A DNA stretch of 64,000 nucleotides. It comes from Propioniciclava flava. GTDB taxonomy: Bacteria > Actinomycetota > Actinomycetes > Propionibacteriales > Propionibacteriaceae. The stretch is from positions 62,001 through 126,000 of the forward strand of contig NZ_PPCV01000002.1 in assembly GCF_004126535.1 (NCBI RefSeq). The letters are read 5' to 3'. Below, in pieces: positions 45,465 through 63,468 of the stretch; the stretch's first letter is position 1; every line of letters starts with the position of its first letter. The notes beneath the pieces were generated by a model. It saw only the letters and a program-made list of their open reading frames with translations, did no database searches and had not been told where the DNA came from. The position numbers and the translations under genes are program-made.

Positions 45465-46859
45465 GTGCGTGCATTCGATCTCATCGTCATCGGCGCCGGT
45501 TCGGGCAACTCGATCATCGACGAGCGGTTTGCTCACCAGCGGGTTGCCTTGCTCGACAACGGGCGCCGCTTCGGGGGCACCTGCCTGAACTACGGCTGCA
45601 TCCCGACGAAGATGTTCGTCCTGCCCGCCGACTACCTCACCAGCCCCGCGGACGCCGCCCGCGTCGGTGTGCACCTGGACGCCGCCAGCGCCGACTGGGC
45701 CCAGGTACGCGATCGTATCTTCGGGCGCATCGACCCCATTTCCGACGCCGGACGCGACTGGCGCGCTGAGAGCCCCAACGTGACCTTGTTCCGGGAGACG
45801 GGACGCTTCATCGGGCCAAAAACCCTTCGCGTCGGCGATGAGGAGATCACGGCCGACAAGATCGTCATCGCGGCCGGATCCCGCGCTGTGATCCCGCCCC
45901 TTCCTGGCTTGTCCGCCGCGTTCGAGGCAGGGTTGGCGCACACGTCGGACACGATCATGCGCATCGGCTCACTGCCGCCACGCATCACCATCCTGGGCAC
46001 CGGCTACATCGGCTCAGAGTTCGCTCACGTGTTCTCTGCGTTCGGCTCCTCGGTCACGATGATCGGGCGATCGGCCCGCGTGTTGGGCCGCGAGGACGAG
46101 GCCATCGCGGAGCGGTACACCTCCGTGCTGGCCGAGGCGATCGACCTGCGTCTGGAGCGCGACATCACCGACATTTCGGTGGCCGACGGTGTGGTCACCG
46201 TGACGATGCGCCGACGCGATGGCAGCGTCGACGCGGTCGAGTCGGACCTGCTTCTGGTGGCGACCGGGCGGACACCCAACGGCGACACCCTGGACGTGCA
46301 GGCGTCCGGTGTCGCGATGGACGCCGCGGGCTTCATTCTGGTCGACGACCAGCAGCGCACCAGCGTGCCGGGGATCTGGGCACTCGGGGACGTCAGCTCG
46401 CCGTGGATGCTCAAACACGTGGCCAACCATGAGGCGCGCATCGTGGCCCACAACCTGCTCGACCCGCAGCATCCGGCACGGCGCGATGACCGCCCCGTAC
46501 CGCATGCGGTGTTCGGGCATCCGCAGGTGGCCTCGGTTGGTCTCACGGAACGCGAGGCCCGCGAGGGCGGCTTGGATGTGGTCGTCGCGGTCCAGGATTA
46601 CGCCGGAACCGCCTACGGGTGGGCCATGGAGGACCGCGACAGCTTCGTGAAGGTCGTCGCGGATCGGCGCACCGGACGCCTCGTGGGCGCCCACGTGATC
46701 GGGCCCCAGGCGTCCGTGCTGATCCAGCCGCTCATTCAGGCGATGAGTTTCTCTTTGAGCGTGAGCGAGATGGCTCGGGGCCAGTTCTGGATTCATCCGG
46801 CGCTGACCGAGGTGGTCGAGAACGCGCTGCTGGGTCTGGGCTTGGGCGAGGGGCAATGA
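45465..46859 (+). CDS. mtr: Mycothione reductase
   Basis: A 464-residue flavoprotein disulfide reductase that uses NADPH to reduce oxidised mycothiol (mycothione). It has FAD-binding IGAGSGNSIID at the N terminus, the redox pair Cys40/Cys45 in GGTCLNYGCIPTK, a second dinucleotide site in ILGTGYIGSEFAHV, and the C-terminal catalytic His in WIHPALTEVVENALLG. GSGNSIID and GCIPTKMFV are typical of Mtr rather than of dihydrolipoamide dehydrogenase. mshD elsewhere in the window supports mycothiol use. It is coupled to the next gene. Confidence 0.94.
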   Translation: MRAFDLIVIGAGSGNSIIDERFAHQRVALLDNGRRFGGTCLNYGCIPTKMFVLPADYLTSPADAARVGVHLDAASADWAQVRDRIFGRIDPISDAGRDWRAESPNVTLFRETGRFIGPKTLRVGDEEITADKIVIAAGSRAVIPPLPGLSAAFEAGLAHTSDTIMRIGSLPPRITILGTGYIGSEFAHVFSAFGSSVTMIGRSARVLGREDEAIAERYTSVLAEAIDLRLERDITDISVADGVVTVTMRRRDGSVDAVESDLLLVATGRTPNGDTLDVQASGVAMDAAGFILVDDQQRTSVPGIWALGDVSSPWMLKHVANHEARIVAHNLLDPQHPARRDDRPVPHAVFGHPQVASVGLTEREAREGGLDVVVAVQDYAGTAYGWAMEDRDSFVKVVADRRTGRLVGAHVIGPQASVLIQPLIQAMSFSLSVSEMARGQFWIHPALTEVVENALLGLGLGEGQ

Positions 46860-48061
46860 TCCGCCGCGGGCTGATCCTCCTCGGCCTCGTCAGTCTGGCC
46901 TTCACCGGCTGCCAGACGCCGGTGGGGCCCACTCCCGCGCCGACGGCCACGGGGTCAGCCTCCGCGAGTTCTGCGTCGGCGACCGCGACCCCCAGCGCGT
47001 CCACCCCCGCCACGGCGACCCCCGCCCCGCTGAGCACCTGTCAGCGCGTCGCCAGCGAGATGTCCGTGGAGGACGCTGCCGGTCAACTCGTCATGATGGG
47101 GGTCACGGGCTCCCTGGACGCCACGGGGGCCTCGGTGTTGTCCTCCTCGCGCATCGGGTCGGTGATCTTGATGGGTACCTCCAGCGGTGGTGTGAAAGGC
47201 ACGGCCTCCCGGGTGGCGGCCATCCGCAAGGCGGGTGGGGATCACGGAATCCTGGTCGGGGTCGATCAGGAAGGTGGCACGGTCCGCAGGCTTCAGGGGG
47301 CCGGGTTCAGCACGATGCCCTCAGCGGTCGAGCAGGCAGCGATGTCGGACGCCGACCTGCGCACGGCAGCCCACACCTGGGGGAGCGAACTCGCTCGTGC
47401 GGGGATCAACCTGGACTTCGCCCCGGTGGTGGATGTGGTCCCACCGGGCAAGGCGTCCACCAACGAACCCATCGGCAAGCTGAAGCGCGGCTACGGCTCC
47501 ACCCCGGAGAAGGTCGCTGACAAGGCCACGGCCTTCATCGAGGGGCTTCAACAGGCGAATGTCGGGGCAACGGCGAAGCACTTTCCCAACCTGGGCCAGG
47601 TGACCGGCAACACCGACTTCGCCGCCAAAGTCGTCGACAGCGTCACCACCGCCGACGACCCTGCCTTGCTGCCGTACCGGCGCGCCATTGCGGCGGATGT
47701 GGCGTCGATCATGGTGTCGACGGCCTACTTCACCCGGATCGACGGGTCCAGCCCGGCCGCCTTCAGCCCCACCGTGGTGGGCCTGGTGCGGGGGCTGGGC
47801 TTCACCGGGGTGATCACCAGCGACGACCTCGGTGCGGCGAAGGCGGTTGCGTCCGTTCCGGTCAAGCAGCGGGCCGTCCGGTTCGTGAGGGCGGGGGGTG
47901 ATCTGGCGATCAGTGTCGACCCGTCGGCGGCGTCTGCGATGGTCGCGGGTCTGGTGGAGCAAGCGCATGCCGATCCGGCGTTCGCGGCCCAGGTACGCGC
48001 GAGCGCGGCGCGCGTTTTGGAGCTCAAACAACGGCTCGGCGTCGCGTCGTGTGATTCTTAG
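46856..48061 (+). CDS. GH3 beta-N-acetylhexosaminidase-like lipoprotein (NagZ/LpqI type)
   Basis: A 401-residue exported lipoprotein. The lipobox LAFTGC puts the lipidated Cys at residue 19, and a Ser/Thr/Ala/Pro linker follows. The rest is a glycoside hydrolase family 3 barrel, with VGVDQEGG and the nucleophile Asp in TSDDLGAAKAV. The usual NagZ segment KHFPGHGDT is replaced by KHFPNLGQVTGNTD, so the His of the acid/base dyad is absent, as may also be true of actinobacterial LpqI. It probably acts on N-acetylglucosamine residues of muropeptides. It converges on the PAP2 pseudogene with a 4-base overlap. Confidence 0.87.
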   Translation: MIRRGLILLGLVSLAFTGCQTPVGPTPAPTATGSASASSASATATPSASTPATATPAPLSTCQRVASEMSVEDAAGQLVMMGVTGSLDATGASVLSSSRIGSVILMGTSSGGVKGTASRVAAIRKAGGDHGILVGVDQEGGTVRRLQGAGFSTMPSAVEQAAMSDADLRTAAHTWGSELARAGINLDFAPVVDVVPPGKASTNEPIGKLKRGYGSTPEKVADKATAFIEGLQQANVGATAKHFPNLGQVTGNTDFAAKVVDSVTTADDPALLPYRRAIAADVASIMVSTAYFTRIDGSSPAAFSPTVVGLVRGLGFTGVITSDDLGAAKAVASVPVKQRAVRFVRAGGDLAISVDPSAASAMVAGLVEQAHADPAFAAQVRASAARVLELKQRLGVASCDS

Positions 48062-48752
48062 CCTCGTCGGGGCGTAGCCCAGCGTCGACCCCGACGACCT
48101 GACCCGGAAGGCCGCCCTCCCAGCAGGGTGAGACCGTGGACGCCCCATCCCCAGGCGGCAGCCAGCAGGGCAGCCCCCAGGACATCGCTGGGGCGATGCC
48201 ACCCCGCTGCCACCACGCCGATGCTGATCAGCAGGGAACCGACGGCAGCGACCGGCAGGGCGAGACCGCGCAACCACGTCCGGGGGGCCAGGACGAGCGC
48301 GCACGTAGCACCCCAGGCGAGTGCCGCGTGACCGGAGGGGAACGAGTTGGACAGATGCGGCCCCACGGTCAGTTCGGGCCGCTCGAGGAGCGACTTGACC
48401 ACCTGCGAGGTGAGGTTGACCCGGCGAACGCTACGAGGGGGCCTGCAATGCCCCCGCGCCGAGGCCGCATGCACGCGCAGATCAGAGCAACGCCCACGCA
48501 GGCGAGGGCGAACCACACGATCCGGCCCGACATCATCTGGGCGGCGAGGCTCCTGGTGGCCCCGGACTGTTCGCTGAGCGTCATCATCAGGGCTTGGTCC
48601 AGGGTCTGGCCGGGACGGGTCAAGACGGCGACGACGGCGAGCACGCCCGCGGCTCCCCCGAATCCGAGCCCTGCGGCGAGGGAGCCCCAGCCGGGACGCC
48701 GACCGGTGGGCGGCGCTGAGATGGATCGGGGGACGGAGGGTGCGGTGGTCAT
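48058..48752 (-). pseudogene. PAP2-family phosphatase, frameshifted
   Basis: The two halves lie in different frames. The N-terminal half (start 48752, preceded by GAGGAGAG) encodes two membrane helices to about 48424. The C-terminal half, to 48058, encodes all the PAP2 catalytic motifs: VKSLLERP (KxxxxxxRP), SFPSGHAA, and GWHRPSDVLG with the His and Asp. The switch occurs near a GGG run on the minus strand (48420-48422). Adding one G would join VAFAG to VNLTSQ and restore a protein of about 231 residues. It is either a real loss of function or a homopolymer sequencing error. The intact protein would dephosphorylate a lipid pyrophosphate such as undecaprenyl-PP. Confidence 0.85.
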
Positions 48753-48781
48753 GAGAACTCTCCTCGGGGACGGCGGGACGC

Positions 48782-49936
48782 TCAGGCAGGGACCACGCAG
48801 GTGGCCCGATCGGCGTTTTGGCCATCGACGTTCTTCGGCAGAGACGAGGCCGTGGGGCTCGTGGGGGCTGGACCGCCGCTGGTGGTGGCGCCGCGTCCGG
48901 TGTGCGATGCGTCGAGGTGGAGCGGCTGGTCCGCCGCGATCAGCCCGAACAGTGTCGTGGCGGCGGCCTTGTCGGGAACCACCCGGTTGCCATGGGGCAG
49001 ATAGGGGTAGGTGACCAGCGCCATCGTCTCGACCGGGATGCCCGCGACCGTGGTGGCCAACGACGCCAAGGTGCCAGGGTCGGCCAGATCGGTGGAGAGC
49101 ACCATCGTGCGGCTTGCGGTGTCGGCGATCGCATACAGGCGGACGGGGTCGGCCAAGGTCGCCCGTGCGCGCAGCGTACGGGCCAGGGAGGACAGGAAGA
49201 CCTGCTGGGTGGAGATCCGTGCCAGGTCGCTGCCGTCGCCCACGCCATGCTGGGAGCGCAGCAGCGCCAGGGCTTGTTCGCCGGAAAGGTCGAAGGTGCC
49301 TGCCGAGGGGATGCTCAGGCCCGAACGCGGGTCGTCGATCGGGCCGGTGAAGCAGACGGGGACGCCGCCCACGGCGGTCGAGAGTTCGATCACGCCCTGG
49401 AAGCTGATCTGGGCGGCGAAGCGGATCCGGGACCCGGTCAGGCTTTCCACCGCCGTCGCGACACAGCCCAGGCCGCCTCGGCTCAGCCCGGCCCCGAACG
49501 CGACACCGGTTTCAGCAGGCACGCGGGTGCCCTTCGGGCTTGTGCACGCGGGAAAGTCGATCAGCAGGTCGCGGGGAAAGGAGACGATGGTGGCCTGGTT
49601 GTGTGCCGCGTTGACGTGGAGCAACAACGTGACGTCATTGCGGGCGCCGGCGATGTCGCTGCCCTCCCCGTACTGGGCGCCCTGCCCGGCGCGGCCGTCC
49701 GACCCGACGAGGAGGACGTCGAACGCTCCCGAGTAGTCGGCGATCGGGTCGGGGCCCGGGTCACTGAGATCCACGGTGGTGAGCTGGGAACTGAGCCGCG
49801 CGGCGCCCAGCGCGATGGCGGTGGCGGCGATGAGCAGCACGGTCAGGAGCACCACGAGGATGATGCGTCCCCACCGGGGTTGAGGCGGCTGCGCGCGGGG
49901 CGGGACGCGTGGGGTACGAGGGAGGGGCTGAGGCAT
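48782..49936 (-). CDS. LCP (LytR-CpsA-Psr) family cell wall glycopolymer transferase
   Basis: A 384-residue membrane-anchored protein with a short cytoplasmic Pro-rich N terminus and one helix (about 25-47). The LCP domain contains FDVLLVGSDGRAGQGAQYG, GARNDVTLLLHVN and VSFPRDLLIDFP, with the conserved Arg and Asp that bind the polyprenyl pyrophosphate substrate. LCP proteins attach teichoic-acid-like polymers or arabinogalactan to peptidoglycan. AAAGGA precedes the ATG. A direct-repeat site at 49982-49998 lies 46 bases upstream, inside the end of the histidine kinase gene. Confidence 0.88.
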   Translation of the reverse strand: MPQPLPRTPRVPPRAQPPQPRWGRIILVVLLTVLLIAATAIALGAARLSSQLTTVDLSDPGPDPIADYSGAFDVLLVGSDGRAGQGAQYGEGSDIAGARNDVTLLLHVNAAHNQATIVSFPRDLLIDFPACTSPKGTRVPAETGVAFGAGLSRGGLGCVATAVESLTGSRIRFAAQISFQGVIELSTAVGGVPVCFTGPIDDPRSGLSIPSAGTFDLSGEQALALLRSQHGVGDGSDLARISTQQVFLSSLARTLRARATLADPVRLYAIADTASRTMVLSTDLADPGTLASLATTVAGIPVETMALVTYPYLPHGNRVVPDKAAATTLFGLIAADQPLHLDASHTGRGATTSGGPAPTSPTASSLPKNVDGQNADRATCVVPA

Positions 49937-49981
49937 GCGAGTGAGTCCTTTCGTCGTCGCTCGTCATCGTGGGGCGGCGAC

Positions 49982-49998
49982 GTCACAGGACGGTCACA
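49982..49998. promoter_or_regulatory. Direct-repeat regulator site before the LCP gene
   Basis: GTCACAGGACGGTCACA: two GTCACA half-sites 11 bases apart, one helical turn, as for OmpR/PhoB-type response regulators. It overlaps the stop codon of the histidine kinase gene and lies 46-62 bases before the LCP ATG. Fifteen of 17 bases match the site at 52109-52125. Confidence 0.65.
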
Positions 49999-52048
49999 CG
50001 AGCGGAAGGGTGAGGCGGAAGCACGCCCCCGTGGTCGTCTCCTGAAGCGTGAGTTCCCCGCCGAGCAGGCGGGCGTTGTCGCGGGCGATCGCGAGCCCCA
50101 GACCGTTGCTGGCGGGATTGTGCCGCGCGGTGTCCAACGTGACGAACCGCTCGAAAACGTCGGCCGCGTGCTCGGCGGGAATGCCTGGCCCCTCATCGCG
50201 GACGCTGACGACGAGGTGGCCCGCGGCAGTCTCGGCGGACACCGTCACGGGCGGCGCCCCGTGATGCAGCGCGTTGCTCAGGAGGTTGGCCACGATCGTG
50301 TGGAGGCGGTCGGCGTCCGTGGTGACGCTGAGCCCGGTGGGGGCCTGGACGTCGACGACGCGGTCGGGATCCAGAAGCTGCACCGTGGCGGTGAGGAGTT
50401 CGCGCACGCCGAGGGGCGAGGGGGTCACGGTGGCTGCCCCCGCGTCGATGCGCGACAGTTCGAGGAGTTGCTCCATCAGCACGGTGAGGCGTCGGACGCC
50501 GCGGCTGGTCACGGTCATCGCGATGGCACGCTCCTCGTGGGTGGCCTGGTCGAACTCCTCGATGATCTCGGCCACGGCGGTCATCGACGTCAGCGGGGTG
50601 CGCAGTTCGTGAGCTACGTCGCTGACCAGGCGTCGGGCGTCGTGCTCGCGGCGGGCGAGTTCGGTCATCGTGGTGGCTAGGCGGGTGCCGGATTCGTGGA
50701 GTGCGGTGGCGATCTGGTTGACGTCGGTAAAGGTGGAGGTGGTCGCTGGTGGGGTCTCGCCCTCGCCCAGGGCGCGGGCCATGGCGGTCAGGCGGCGCAA
50801 CGGCTGGGTGAGCGTGCGGGCGATCAAGAACCCGGCCGTGCCGGTCACGAGGAGCGCCGCCCCGCCGATGACGACGGCAGCCGTGACGAGTTGCATCACC
50901 TGCTGGCGTTGCGGCTCCAACGAGTAGGAACTCACGATCAGCACCGTGGGCGCTGCAGATGCCGGATCGAAGGACGCCAAGCCCACGAGGAAGACTTCGT
51001 CCCCGCCGAGGGTGGTGCGCAGGTAGCGCAGAGCTCCGGCGGGTGGCTGGCTGGCTGGGTCGAGCCAGGAGGCGGGGATCTCCTGCGCGGTGAGATTTCC
51101 GGCGATGCGCCCCGTTGCAGGCACGACGATGGCGCTGCGGCGAGGCAGCATGCGGGCCAGGCTGTCCCAGCCGACGCCGGAGGGGTCCGCGGAGATCTCC
51201 TGGCGCACCGCGTCCGTGGCGTCGCGATACTCGGCGAGGATCGCGTTTTGGCGCGCCTGGTAGATGATCTGCCGGGCCGAGGAGACGAGGACGCCGGTGG
51301 TGGCCACGATCGCGGCCCCTGCCACGGTGGTTCCGGGCCGAGGATCCGTCGGCGCGTGGCGGGCGGAGAGCAGCACGGCCAACCAGACGCCGATGACCAG
51401 GCCGAACAGGTGCCCGAACGTGGAGAGGTAGGCCGCCGCCCCCATCCCTGAGGCGCTCATCACGAACGGAGCGGCGACCGCGAGGACTGCCGCGAAGCCC
51501 AGCCCCCCAGCCCTGGGTGCGCGCCCGGACGTGAAGCACAGGGCCAGCAGGGAGGGCCACACCAGGTAGAACTGCTCCTCGATCGCCAGCGACCAGAAGT
51601 TGTCGAACAGCCCGGTGCGGGTCTGGGCGAAGTAGTCGTTTCCGGCTGCGAGCATCACCCAGTTCTGGGAAAAGGTCGCGATCCCCAGGAAGGAGGCGGG
51701 TAGGCCCACGAGCACGTCGCCGCCCACGACGAGCGCCGCCAGTCCCGTCACCGTGACGGTCGCGATGGCGGCAGGCAGCAGGCGGCGCGCACGGCGGACG
51801 TAGAACGCGGGTAGGTTGATCCGCCCTGCCCGGTCATGCTCGCGTACCAGCAGCGTGGTGATGAGGTATCCGCTGACCACGAAGAAGACGTCGACCCCAG
51901 CGAACCCGCCCGGAGCCCAGACCGCCGACACGTGGTAGAGCAGAACGGCGGCGACCGACAGTGCGCGTACCCCGTCCAAGCCACCGATGCGGGCTGAACC
52001 AGCACCCACCGGGACCGCCACCGCGGGCTGATCGTAGGCAACCTTCAT
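49994..52048 (-). CDS. Fusion of truncated acyltransferase and sensor histidine kinase
   Basis: One open frame of 684 residues. Residues about 20-230 are the first part of an Acyltransferase_3 (OafA-type) membrane enzyme: GLDGVRALSVAAVLLYH with catalytic His39, GFAGVDVFFVVSGYL, and an FWSLAIEEQFYLVWP segment. The last membrane helices of that family are missing. From about residue 238 a full histidine kinase follows: one helix (about 240-257), an extracytoplasmic sensor region (258-382) and a second helix (383-410). HAMP, HisKA with VAHELRTPL (His480), the N box near 588-592, G1 DEGPGI (618-623) and G2 GLGLAIA (649-655) complete it. No response regulator gene is adjacent. The joint lies near 51330-51360. 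Confidence 0.85.
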   Translation of the reverse strand: MKVAYDQPAVAVPVGAGSARIGGLDGVRALSVAAVLLYHVSAVWAPGGFAGVDVFFVVSGYLITTLLVREHDRAGRINLPAFYVRRARRLLPAAIATVTVTGLAALVVGGDVLVGLPASFLGIATFSQNWVMLAAGNDYFAQTRTGLFDNFWSLAIEEQFYLVWPSLLALCFTSGRAPRAGGLGFAAVLAVAAPFVMSASGMGAAAYLSTFGHLFGLVIGVWLAVLLSARHAPTDPRPGTTVAGAAIVATTGVLVSSARQIIYQARQNAILAEYRDATDAVRQEISADPSGVGWDSLARMLPRRSAIVVPATGRIAGNLTAQEIPASWLDPASQPPAGALRYLRTTLGGDEVFLVGLASFDPASAAPTVLIVSSYSLEPQRQQVMQLVTAAVVIGGAALLVTGTAGFLIARTLTQPLRRLTAMARALGEGETPPATTSTFTDVNQIATALHESGTRLATTMTELARREHDARRLVSDVAHELRTPLTSMTAVAEIIEEFDQATHEERAIAMTVTSRGVRRLTVLMEQLLELSRIDAGAATVTPSPLGVRELLTATVQLLDPDRVVDVQAPTGLSVTTDADRLHTIVANLLSNALHHGAPPVTVSAETAAGHLVVSVRDEGPGIPAEHAADVFERFVTLDTARHNPASNGLGLAIARDNARLLGGELTLQETTTGACFRLTLPLV

Positions 52049-52108
52049 GAGCCCTCACCACCGTTCGACTAGTCATCTCTGTCGTCCGGTGGAGTGTTGC
52101 TGGCCGAT

Positions 52109-52125
52109 GTCACATCACGGTCACA
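52109..52125. promoter_or_regulatory. Direct-repeat regulator site before the acyltransferase-kinase gene
   Basis: GTCACATCACGGTCACA: two GTCACA half-sites 11 bases apart, 61-77 bases before the start of the fusion gene. It is nearly identical to the site before the LCP gene. The TCACA-N6-TCACA pattern resembles the direct repeat bound by mycobacterial PhoP. Confidence 0.65.
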
Positions 52126-52173
52126 GGCCACGAAGGAGCCGAGGGTGACCCCGCAGGGGCCGGAGGTGTGCGC

Positions 52174-53100
52174 TTAGGGTTCGACGCGCAGTTGTGCCTG
52201 CACCTGCCGTGCGGTGGCCAGCAGTTCAGGCCTGCTGTCGGGGATGGAGGCGTAGTAGAGGCTGGAGGACTCGTCGCTGGTGGCGACGATGACGATGATC
52301 GCGGTCTCGCCGGTCTCGTTCAGCCCCTTGATGGAGAAGCCGAGGTGCATCTCGGTGACCCAGGCGTCCTTGCCGTCGACCGTGGTGGCCTGGCTGACGA
52401 CGTCTTGGCGGGAGACGGCAGCGTCGCCGTAGAAGACACCCAGCACGCACCGGGTGACGATCTCGGAGCCCTGCTGGGGAGAGAAGAAGCCGTCCCCCGC
52501 GACGAGTTCCCCCACCAGCAGCGAGGCAACCCAGCTGCTCCCCTTACCGTCGTAGTCCTCTTGCACCATGACGCTTTGCCCGTAAGCGTCGCGGCCGAAG
52601 GGAACGCGGTTGTCGGGGCGCACAGGGCCCCACGGGGAGCCTAGCAAGGGGTAGGAGAGTTTGCCCCCCTGGACGCGACCGCTGGGATTGGCATGCGAGC
52701 TCGGGGTGGCACTGGGGTCGAACGTGATCTTGGGGCATACGTTCGAGGTGGGGTTGGAGGCAGCCTCGTCGGTGTTCCCGCCGAACGCGCCGCTCAACAG
52801 ATACCACCCGCCGACGATCATGCCGATGATCAGCAGGCCGATGAGCCCCAGCGCCAGCGCGGGGCCCAGCTTGGAGGAGCGCTGATCGATCTCGGCGTAG
52901 GTGTAGGGGCCCGCCGGGCGGCCCTGCTGCGCCTCCCGGATCGGGAGGGAACCCGCCGGGGGGGCGGGCTGGGAGGGTGCCAGCCCCGGGGCGGGGGAGG
53001 ACGGGTTCGGGGAGACGTGTGTCGTCCACGTCGAACCGTCCCACCACCGGAACATTCCTGGCTGCCCGCTCGGGTCCGTGTACCAACCTGGCTGAGTCAT
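52174..53100 (-). CDS. DUF2510 membrane protein
   Basis: A 308-residue protein with an N-terminal DUF2510 module (PGWYTDPSGQPGMFRWWDGSTWTTH), a Pro-rich linker, and one helix near residues 86-108. An extracytoplasmic C-terminal domain of about 190 residues follows, for which I know no function. DUF2510 occurs on many actinobacterial membrane proteins and may mediate protein contacts. The ATG has TAGAAT 6 bases upstream and no ribosome-binding site, so the mRNA is probably leaderless. It stands alone between the pst operon and the envelope genes. Confidence 0.83.
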   Translation of the reverse strand: MTQPGWYTDPSGQPGMFRWWDGSTWTTHVSPNPSSPAPGLAPSQPAPPAGSLPIREAQQGRPAGPYTYAEIDQRSSKLGPALALGLIGLLIIGMIVGGWYLLSGAFGGNTDEAASNPTSNVCPKITFDPSATPSSHANPSGRVQGGKLSYPLLGSPWGPVRPDNRVPFGRDAYGQSVMVQEDYDGKGSSWVASLLVGELVAGDGFFSPQQGSEIVTRCVLGVFYGDAAVSRQDVVSQATTVDGKDAWVTEMHLGFSIKGLNETGETAIIVIVATSDESSSLYYASIPDSRPELLATARQVQAQLRVEP

Positions 53101-61388: not shown

Positions 61389-62822
61389 GTGAGTGGGATC
61401 GAGTTGGCGTCGCGGCAGGGACGCATGATCGTGGTCGCGACGGTGCTGGGCTCGGGGATGGCGATGCTGGATAGTTCGGTCGTCAACGTTGCCTTGGTTC
61501 GGATCGGGGAGGATCTGGGCGCCGGGCTCGCCGACCTGCAGTGGGTGACCAACGGATACCTCCTGGCATTGGCGTCCCTCATTCTGCTGGGTGGGTCGTT
61601 GGGGGACCGGTTCGGACGCCGCCGCATCTTCAGCCTCGGCGTCGTGTGGTTCGCGGTCGCTTCTGCGGTGTGTGGGCTGGCACAGACGCCAGAACAGCTC
61701 ATCGTCGCGCGGCTGCTGCAAGGCGTCGGTGGGGCGCTCCTCACACCCGGCAGTCTCGCGCTGCTGGAGTCGTCGCTGCGGGTCACCGATCGCGCCAAGG
61801 CCATCGGTGCGTGGACGGGCGCCACGGGCATCGCCTCGATCGCGGGCCCGTTCCTGGGCGGCTGGCTTGTGCAGTACGCGTCCTGGCGTTGGGTGTTTGG
61901 CATCAACATTCCCCTCGCTGTGGCGACGCTGTGGGTGACCCGCGTGGCCGTCCCGGAGAGTCGCCGCGATCGCGTCGAGGGTCGCTTCGACGTGGGCGGG
62001 GCGGTCTTGGCGACGGCGACCTTGGCGGCCGCGACGGTCGCCTTGATCCAATCCGCCTCGCTCGGGGCTGCCATGACGGTTGCGCTGCTGGGGCTTGCCG
62101 TGGTGCTGGGCGTGGCTTTCGTGCTGGTGGAGCGGCGGACCGAGCACCCGATGGTGGAGCCGTCCCTGTTCGCTGATCGCGTGTTTAGCGGGGCGAACCT
62201 CATGACGCTGCTCACCTATGCCGCGTTGGGGGCGATGTCGTTCTTCGTGACGTTGCAGTTGCAGATCACCGTCGGCTACGAACCGCTGCTGGCCGGGGTG
62301 GCGTCCATGCCCATCACGGTGCTGATGATGGCGCTGGCGGCCAAAGGCGGCGAGTTGGGCACCAGGATCGGGCCTCGCATCCCGATGACGGTGGGCCCCC
62401 TGTCGTGTGCGATCGGCGTCGCCTGGCTGTCGTTCGTGGACGCCTCGGACGCTGGCCTGGCGGGCTACCTGACGGCCGTCCTGCCCGGGCTGCTCGTGTT
62501 CGGCCTGGGACTATGCCTGCTGGTCGCCCCACTGACGTCGACGGTGCTGGCCGCCGCTCCCGAGGGTTTTGCGGGGGTGGCGAGCGGGGTCAACAATGCG
62601 GTGGCCCGTACCGGCACCCTGCTTGCTATCGCGGCGCTGCCTGCCGCGGTTGGCTTGGGCAGCGACTATCGGGATGCGGCCGTGTTCAGCCCCGGATACC
62701 AACGGGCGATGCTGGTCTGTGCCGGGCTGCTGGTTCTGGGCGCGGTGGTGTCGTGGTGGGCGCTCCGAGCCGCGCCCGCTCCGAGTAGTGGAGCCGTCAG
62801 TCGTGGGACGCTTCGGGGCTGA
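61389..62822 (+). CDS. MFS transporter, DHA2 (EmrB/QacA-like) family
   Basis: A 477-residue membrane protein with about 14 helices. The DHA2 drug/H+ antiporter signatures are LDSSVVNVALVRIGEDLG in helix 1, GSLGDRFGRRR in the helix 2-3 loop, and GPFLGGWLVQYASWRWVFGINIP (motif C region). The exported substrate is not predictable. The GTG at 61389 was chosen by the -10-like CACACT and by the position of helix 1. It is divergent from mshD with 69 bases between the starts, so shared control is possible. Its 3' end overlaps glnR by 26 bases, convergently. Confidence 0.92.
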   Translation: MSGIELASRQGRMIVVATVLGSGMAMLDSSVVNVALVRIGEDLGAGLADLQWVTNGYLLALASLILLGGSLGDRFGRRRIFSLGVVWFAVASAVCGLAQTPEQLIVARLLQGVGGALLTPGSLALLESSLRVTDRAKAIGAWTGATGIASIAGPFLGGWLVQYASWRWVFGINIPLAVATLWVTRVAVPESRRDRVEGRFDVGGAVLATATLAAATVALIQSASLGAAMTVALLGLAVVLGVAFVLVERRTEHPMVEPSLFADRVFSGANLMTLLTYAALGAMSFFVTLQLQITVGYEPLLAGVASMPITVLMMALAAKGGELGTRIGPRIPMTVGPLSCAIGVAWLSFVDASDAGLAGYLTAVLPGLLVFGLGLCLLVAPLTSTVLAAAPEGFAGVASGVNNAVARTGTLLAIAALPAAVGLGSDYRDAAVFSPGYQRAMLVCAGLLVLGAVVSWWALRAAPAPSSGAVSRGTLRG

Positions 62823-63468
62823 AGCGGTAGCCCACGTTGCGCACCGTCCCGATCAGCGACTCGTGCTCGACGCCGAGCTTGGCGCGCAGGCGACGCACGT
62901 GGACGTCGACCGTCCGGGTGCCGCCGTAATAGTCGTAGCCCCACACGTCGGAGAGCAGCGTCTCGCGGGAGAACACGCGCCCGGGATGCTGCGCCAAGTA
63001 TTTGAGGAGTTCGAACTCGGTGTAGGTCAGATCGAGAGGTTGGCCATCGAGTGCCGCGTGGTAGGCGGCCTCGTCGATGGTCAGACCGCCCGCGTTCACG
63101 ATGCCCGGTTCGTCATCCTGGGAGATGGCGAGGCGGATGCGCGCATCGAACTCGGCTGGCCCGGCTGTTCCCACGACGATGTCGGCCACCCCCCACTCGG
63201 GGCTGATCGCGGCGAAGCCGCTCTCGCCAAGGACGAGGAGCACGGGAATCCTCGAGCCGGCCGCGCTGAGGAGCCGGCACATCTGGCGTGCCGTCGTCAG
63301 GTCGGCGCGGCCATCGACGACGACGAGGTCGACGCGCTGAGCTTCGGTGACGATGGAGGCATCCGGGAGCATCTCCACCACGGTGTGCGCCAACAGCGCC
63401 AATGCTGGAATGGCCGCCGCGCCGGGTGTGACGACGGCGTTGGGGCTGACCGCCAACACCCGCGCCAT
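62797..63468 (-). CDS. glnR: GlnR-like OmpR-family transcriptional regulator
   Basis: A 223-residue orphan response-regulator-like protein. The receiver-like N-terminal domain is atypical; Asp47 and Asp52 lie near the position of the usual phospho-acceptor, but the acidic pocket at the N terminus is missing. The C-terminal winged helix reads LTYTEFELLKYLAQHPGRVFSRE, WGYDYYGGTRTVDVHVRRLRAKLG and IGTVRNVGYRF, which closely fits actinobacterial GlnR, the regulator of nitrogen metabolism. No kinase gene is adjacent, as is usual for GlnR. GGAG precedes the ATG. Confidence 0.85.
   Translation of the reverse strand: MARVLAVSPNAVVTPGAAAIPALALLAHTVVEMLPDASIVTEAQRVDLVVVDGRADLTTARQMCRLLSAAGSRIPVLLVLGESGFAAISPEWGVADIVVGTAGPAEFDARIRLAISQDDEPGIVNAGGLTIDEAAYHAALDGQPLDLTYTEFELLKYLAQHPGRVFSRETLLSDVWGYDYYGGTRTVDVHVRRLRAKLGVEHESLIGTVRNVGYRFSPEASHD

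Follow-up and report, generated by a model that had tools for sequence, protein, structure and literature searches.

At one locus of Propioniciclava flava a single gene begins as a membrane acyltransferase and ends as a sensor histidine kinase, which raises the question of whether it encodes a new kind of sensor or is the remnant of separate genes. The gene lies in a 64,000-nucleotide stretch of DNA (the window, to which positions refer unless another locus is named), and an earlier note on this DNA had put forward both readings. We consider it probable that the chimera is the scar of a deletion that fused an Acyltransferase_3 (AT3) gene to a kinase gene and removed the regulator gene, with operator-like sites left in place.

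The chimeric gene and its joint

The frame listing gives one frame of 684 codons (49994..52048) that runs from an ATG at 52048 to a stop codon ending at 49994, without internal stops. The earlier note had these coordinates and this frame right and gave no strand; the gene, with all parts described here, is on the minus strand. Pfam divides the 684-aa product into AT3 helices TMH1-6 and a histidine kinase. The AT3 part comprises residues 1-235 (51344..52048), as delimited by Pfam, alignment and hydropathy. Acyl_transf_3 matches residues 22-256 over profile positions 2-230 of 326 (about 70%), in line with the previous description of the first two-thirds of the domain, and His39, named there as catalytic, is the histidine of the AT3 R-X10-H motif in TMH1 (R28...H39). 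Also present are GGFAGVD (47-53) before TMH2, in the AT3-SGNH form, RRARR (85-89) before TMH3, matching the AT3 RXXR motif, SQNW, and FWSLAIEEQFYLVWP at residues 151-165. The motifs agree with those in the available excerpts of PMC7448272 and PMC9833829. The set of ten AT3 helices is incomplete: homology stops after TMH6, TMH7-10 and the YLWHWP motif are lacking, and by Pfam the SGNH domain with its 11th helix is absent as well.

The remainder is an orthodox sensor histidine kinase in that it has HisKA (residues 472-537; 50438..50635) and HATPase_c (578-683; 50000..50317) with a phospho-acceptor histidine, the His480 identified earlier. The N, G1, F and G2 boxes of the ATPase are present, as judged by eye and by alignment. 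Hydropathy and alignment place the first kinase helix at residues 240-258 (51275..51331), and hydropathy the second at 389-408 (50825..50884). Between them is a predicted extracytoplasmic sensor region (259-388; 50885..51274) with no Pfam match over the cut-off. The description of a complete kinase holds for the helices, sensor region, HisKA and ATPase boxes and only in part for the HAMP domain. HAMP, which follows the second helix, appears degenerate, with a half match of 22-23 bits (the Pfam cut-off is 25), and it is clear in all three kinase relatives tested. The kinase was also said to lack only its start codon. Its own start is indeed absent, but about ten residues at its beginning are gone too, and an in-frame GTG is present at codon 242.

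The joint, at residues 234-240 (51329..51349), was located from the AT3 and kinase alignments and the codon table, close to residue 235 as the earlier note had it. In an alignment of ten relative rows (two of them, G043_L014 and G000_L003, were read on the wrong strand and disregarded), AT3 homology extends to about 226-233. Kinase homology runs from about 236 and the first kinase helix from about 240. In six of nine kinase relatives this helix is directly preceded by a short, basic N-terminus containing L-R-x-R (MRTPGLRTR, for example), which is missing in the chimera. GC content by codon position is unbroken across the joint.

Published AT3 topology, in the available excerpts of PMC9833829 and PMC7448272, comprises TMH1-10, with a long outer loop between TMH3 and TMH4 and RXXR at the cytosolic face. 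The six helices of the chimera were assigned from this topology and from hydropathy, in which TMH4 is weak, and they are followed by a short polar segment, RHAPTDPRPG. Thus, the joint is predicted to be cytosolic, and the first helix, sensor region and second helix of the kinase are predicted to keep their normal orientation. Translation from the AT3 start should yield a protein with six AT3 helices inserted ahead of a normally oriented kinase.

No counterpart was found. Among the matches listed from 56 other genomes none spans the joint, a search of genome contigs returned two loci that each match one half of the chimera with no spanning match, and none of at least 5000 plasmid records counted covers 80% of the query. 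Literature searches did not find an AT3-histidine kinase fusion, and "histidine kinase" does not occur in the available portion of the review PMC9558356.

The surrounding block and the missing regulator

The chimera is part of a block of about 4.1 kb (48058..52173) that also holds an LCP and a PAP2 gene. The synteny comparison covered 12 congeners, two of which are interrupted by contig ends at the junction. The block is missing at this junction in all ten readable congeners and is thus specific to this genome within the compared set. Read along the minus strand, pstS-pstC-pstA-pstB (named by eye) are followed by a DUF2510 gene, chimera, LCP and PAP2, the last of these head-on to a NagZ-like gene. 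The DUF2510 protein (52174..53100, minus strand; Pfam and synteny) is conserved next to pstB in the genus. The NagZ-like GH3 gene (46619..48061, plus strand) probably has its true start within the frame. In the ten readable congeners DUF2510 is 13-86 bp (measured from tblastn ends) from the NagZ gene or from the gene after it, which is reductase-like (named by eye).

The LCP (LytR-CpsA-Psr) glycopolymer transferase gene (48782..49936, minus strand) has a complete Pfam domain. The PAP2 phosphatase gene (48058..48752, minus strand; Pfam and coding phase) appears to be frameshifted. Its third-position GC signal changes frame mid-gene, and the N-terminal helices and the active-site half with PSGH...GWHRPSD are in different frames. 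It is apparently the second damaged gene of the block, by a real frameshift or a sequencing error. LCP relatives at 1e-28 occur in 15 of 198 genomes of the family, this one included, and the best of the others are 35-39% identical. In a search for an LCP donor, nine of 14 such loci were examined and none has an AT3 match beside the LCP gene. Only one of the nine (G222) has regulator, kinase and LCP in a row, with a different kinase; this row (L133:6602-10676) has three 11-bp CCGTGA repeats upstream. Among the 20 direct and 25 inverted repeat families shown in a search of the block ends, only the operator repeat described below seemed meaningful. A promoter scan found no promoter.

Such kinases normally have an OmpR-type regulator gene nearby, and the earlier observation that none is beside this one is correct. 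The nearest regulator-like match is partial (62821-63408, 38%), and no kinase match was found beside it. Regulators from seven other genomes (G343, G252, G001, G327, G031, G357 and G078) share a core, V[LI]DAR[IV][KR]AxLRR, that is in none of the seven regulators aligned from P. flava. Those seven, full-length or nearly so, are the matches of about 190 residues or more among 19; the other 12 are partial and weaker. MtrAB was considered as a partner and rejected, as the best regulator of this genome (C11, 47% identical) is itself next to a kinase gene of its own. That kinase groups with a clade that we take to be MtrB.

Relatives and direct repeats

Kinase relatives were collected at E<=1e-38 from 391 genomes of the order, which gave nine besides P. 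flava. An OmpR-type regulator gene lies within about 3 kb of the kinase in eight; in the ninth (G202), where a contig end is on one side, no regulator was seen. AT3 is near the kinase in two, G357 and G078, which belong to other families of the order. The earlier note had suggested a search for intact acyltransferase, regulator and kinase loci in near relatives; in these two genomes, of other families, such loci are present. In G357, SGNH (PF19040), AT3 (410 aa, profile 3-324), a small protein, regulator and kinase are encoded in a row, all separate and intact, so that AT3 precedes regulator and kinase. The small protein was briefly taken for a GerMN lipoprotein, a name dropped because Pfam gave no match. 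In G078, SGNH is divergent from regulator-kinase and AT3 is on the other strand past the kinase, again all separate and intact. The SGNH/AT3/OmpR-type regulator/kinase clusters (L109:5725-10487 and L300:6974-11584) have direct-repeat sites upstream of the AT3/SGNH units. Literature searches found no published SGNH-AT3-regulator-kinase cluster of this kind.

The kinase tree places the kinase part of the chimera with G001, G343, G252, G327 and G202 at moderate support (88/85, below the program's star threshold), and outside this clade G357 and G078 group with each other (98/95). The end branch of the chimera's kinase is long (1.74 from the common fork, against about 1.1-1.4 in sister kinases); it was considered as a sign of decay and dropped. 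In the AT3 tree the chimera's AT3 part joins neither the AT3 clade of the genus nor the G357/G078 pair, and by this placement it is not an ortholog of the G357 and G078 AT3. Beside ten AT3 relatives in another family no match to a kinase or regulator was seen, with one of the contexts ending at a contig edge. We also asked whether the AT3-regulator-kinase operon is common in the genus of G357; at E 1e-60 its kinase was found in one of 49 genomes, that of G357 alone.

Two direct repeats, TGTGAC-N5-TGTGAC, were found in the block by a repeat search, both on the minus strand. One (52109..52125) is at -77 from the chimera ATG; the other (49982..49998) is at -62 from the LCP ATG and overlaps the kinase stop codon. 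These are the only exact copies in the 3.0-Mb genome, which has six further repeats with one mismatch (three in all for the reversed control). At two or fewer mismatches the window holds three, against a mean of 5.3 in shuffles, which is not above chance. Eleven of the 12 congeners have no exact copy and one (G005) has two. As direct repeats with an 11-bp period upstream of genes, the sites have the layout of OmpR-family operators, for which a 6-N5-6 arrangement is given in the available part of PMC4832192 (TGTTTAN5TGTTTA, enterobacterial PhoP). From their sequence and position we regard them as candidate operators.

Similar repeats precede several of the related operons. G357 has one exact repeat, in the same orientation, at -57 of the chosen start of its SGNH-AT3-...-regulator-kinase operon. 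The kinase/regulator pairs of G343 and G327 are preceded by TGTGAC-N5-CGGGAC, at -83 and -39 respectively, and in G252 the form is weaker. In G078 the variants are TGCGAC-N5-TGCGAC upstream of AT3 and TGCGAC-N5-CGCGAC upstream of SGNH. No such repeat is upstream of the G001 operon. For eight transcription units selected on grounds other than the motif, the matches upstream exceed those in random windows (Fisher p 3e-9). The background consisted of 20,000 windows of 120 bases drawn at random from the same loci with the real sites included, some of the upstream regions are homologous, and the SGNH start was set after the site had been seen. Two of the eight units, G001 and the G078 regulator-kinase unit, have no signal. 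Of the three outgroup operons one, in G222, gives p 0.02 and scores equal to G252. In two other families of the order, the clusters of G357 and G078 probably represent an AT3/SGNH regulon that has a two-component system of its own.

Across the 391 genomes the exact repeat occurs 122 times (control 28), in 98 genomes and mostly away from such genes. Among 80 motif neighbourhoods examined (families f2, f4 and some others were left out), ten have a match to a regulator, kinase or LCP no more than 3.5 kb away, and in six of the ten the regulator is a different one (33-42% identical). Thus, the repeat alone is no specific sign of this module. The six are genomes of one genus, g23 (L220, L221, L222, L225, L226 and L227), and their regulator is presumably GlnR-like. 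In G031 (L277) the exact repeat is at -39 of a regulator that shares 63% identity with that of G343 and is followed by a kinase; this locus was found via the repeat, and it is the only one of the 80 with a regulator of the subfamily directly behind it. G301 has the same sequence, TGTGACATTGGTGTGAC, five times (contigs C20, C28, C76, C152 and C218), possibly as a repeated element.

Origin of the chimera and known systems

That two separate loci were joined in one contig by an assembly or sequencing artefact is very improbable. The species is represented by one genome, and a sequencing error could account for the PAP2 frameshift, but the locus is well inside a 424-kb contig of an assembly that is 100% complete and 0.15% contaminated, both flanks are syntenic with congeners, and codon-position GC has no break. 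A question of present expression, compatible with a deletion, is whether an internal start yields the kinase as a separate protein, the AT3 part being a leader remnant. We think this rather unlikely. In-frame candidates exist (the GTG at codon 242, position 51325, and ATG codons 197 and 202), but by eye none has a convincing ribosome site ahead of it, whereas the AT3 ATG is preceded by GGTGAGGG, and a start at codon 242 would strip the first helix of its cytosolic anchor.

A true new sensor, as the earlier note also suggested, would have AT3 helices 1-6 as the membrane input; the kinase would then signal via a non-cognate regulator. This reading is quite unlikely to be correct. The R-X10-H, RXXR and GG-F-XGVD motifs are still present in the AT3 helices, the kinase boxes are intact, and no stop or change in codon usage occurs over the joint. 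An even number of helices precedes the joint, whose loop is predicted to be cytosolic; this would leave the sensor loop outside and the kinase inside. AT3 also lies together with such a kinase and regulator in G357 and G078. Against this, no relative with the architecture is among the matches listed or counted from genomes, contigs and plasmids, no cognate regulator was found, HAMP is degenerate, and the neighbouring PAP2 gene is apparently broken. Since the joint preserves both the frame and the predicted topology, we leave a small chance that the AT3 helices, with intact motifs facing acyl-CoA, gate the kinase and that the two-component system reads acyl-CoA supply or envelope acylation.

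A deletion, also proposed in the earlier note, is the simplest account and has indirect support: AT3, regulator and kinase intact and in that order in G357, an intact cluster in G078, a regulator gene near eight of nine kinase relatives, a block lacking in the ten readable congeners, operator-like sites that were kept, a regulator subfamily without a member among the seven regulators aligned from this genome, and an apparently damaged PAP2. The deletion event itself is something that we infer. The ancestral locus probably served envelope modification and was arranged as operator-[AT3 ... OmpR-type regulator-histidine kinase] operator-[LCP-PAP2]. Its acylation and glycopolymer genes would have been controlled by the kinase and regulator via the TGTGAC-N5-TGTGAC sites. 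A deletion with one end in the cytosolic loop that follows AT3 helix 6 and the other shortly inside the kinase start would have taken the remainder of AT3 together with the regulator and the start codon of the kinase, with the frame kept, and loss of the regulator would have orphaned the two operator-like sites. Several findings speak against such a deletion. No genome examined has an intact ancestor of this locus, the frame has stayed open and gives a coherent topology, as a decaying gene need not, and AT3 is near only two of nine kinase relatives, whose AT3 and kinase are in branches separate from those of the chimera. The repeats are weaker evidence in view of the G001 operon without one, the score of G222 and the many copies away from such genes.

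If a deletion did form the chimera, it probably no longer works as intended. Acyl transfer has very probably been lost and no cognate regulator was found; thus, signalling is most likely broken or leaking to another regulator. As the operator-like sites would then have outlived the presumed regulator, the lost partner can be named. AT3/SGNH genes with a two-component system behind a recognisable direct repeat may provide a handle on envelope acyltransferase regulation, and this by-product may matter more than the chimera itself. Were the sensor reading true, cytosolic acyl-CoA or an acylated envelope lipid would be sensed directly by a two-component system.

Among known systems, the chimera shares R-X10-H in TMH1, GG-F-XGVD before TMH2 and RXXR before TMH3 with AT3-SGNH acyltransferases (OafA/OafB/OatA type, PF01757), but it has TMH1-6 only, without TMH7-10, YLWHWP or SGNH, and its C-terminus is a kinase. 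Fusions of AT3 to other domains are described in the available portion of PMC9558356 (AT3-SGNH, and VanT, an AT3-alanine racemase). In these AT3 also has a C-terminal partner, but that partner is not a kinase, and the AT3 of the chimera is cut short. Like the orthodox OmpR-partnered kinases of G001, G343, G252, G327 and G202, the kinase part has a two-helix sensor, HisKA and HATPase_c; unlike them it lacks its own start, has a degenerate HAMP and AT3 helices in front, and no cognate regulator gene was found for it. The G357 and G078 clusters resemble the locus in bringing AT3 and a two-component system together with a direct-repeat site upstream, but their genes are separate and intact, and by the trees neither their AT3 nor their kinase is an ortholog of the part found in the chimera.
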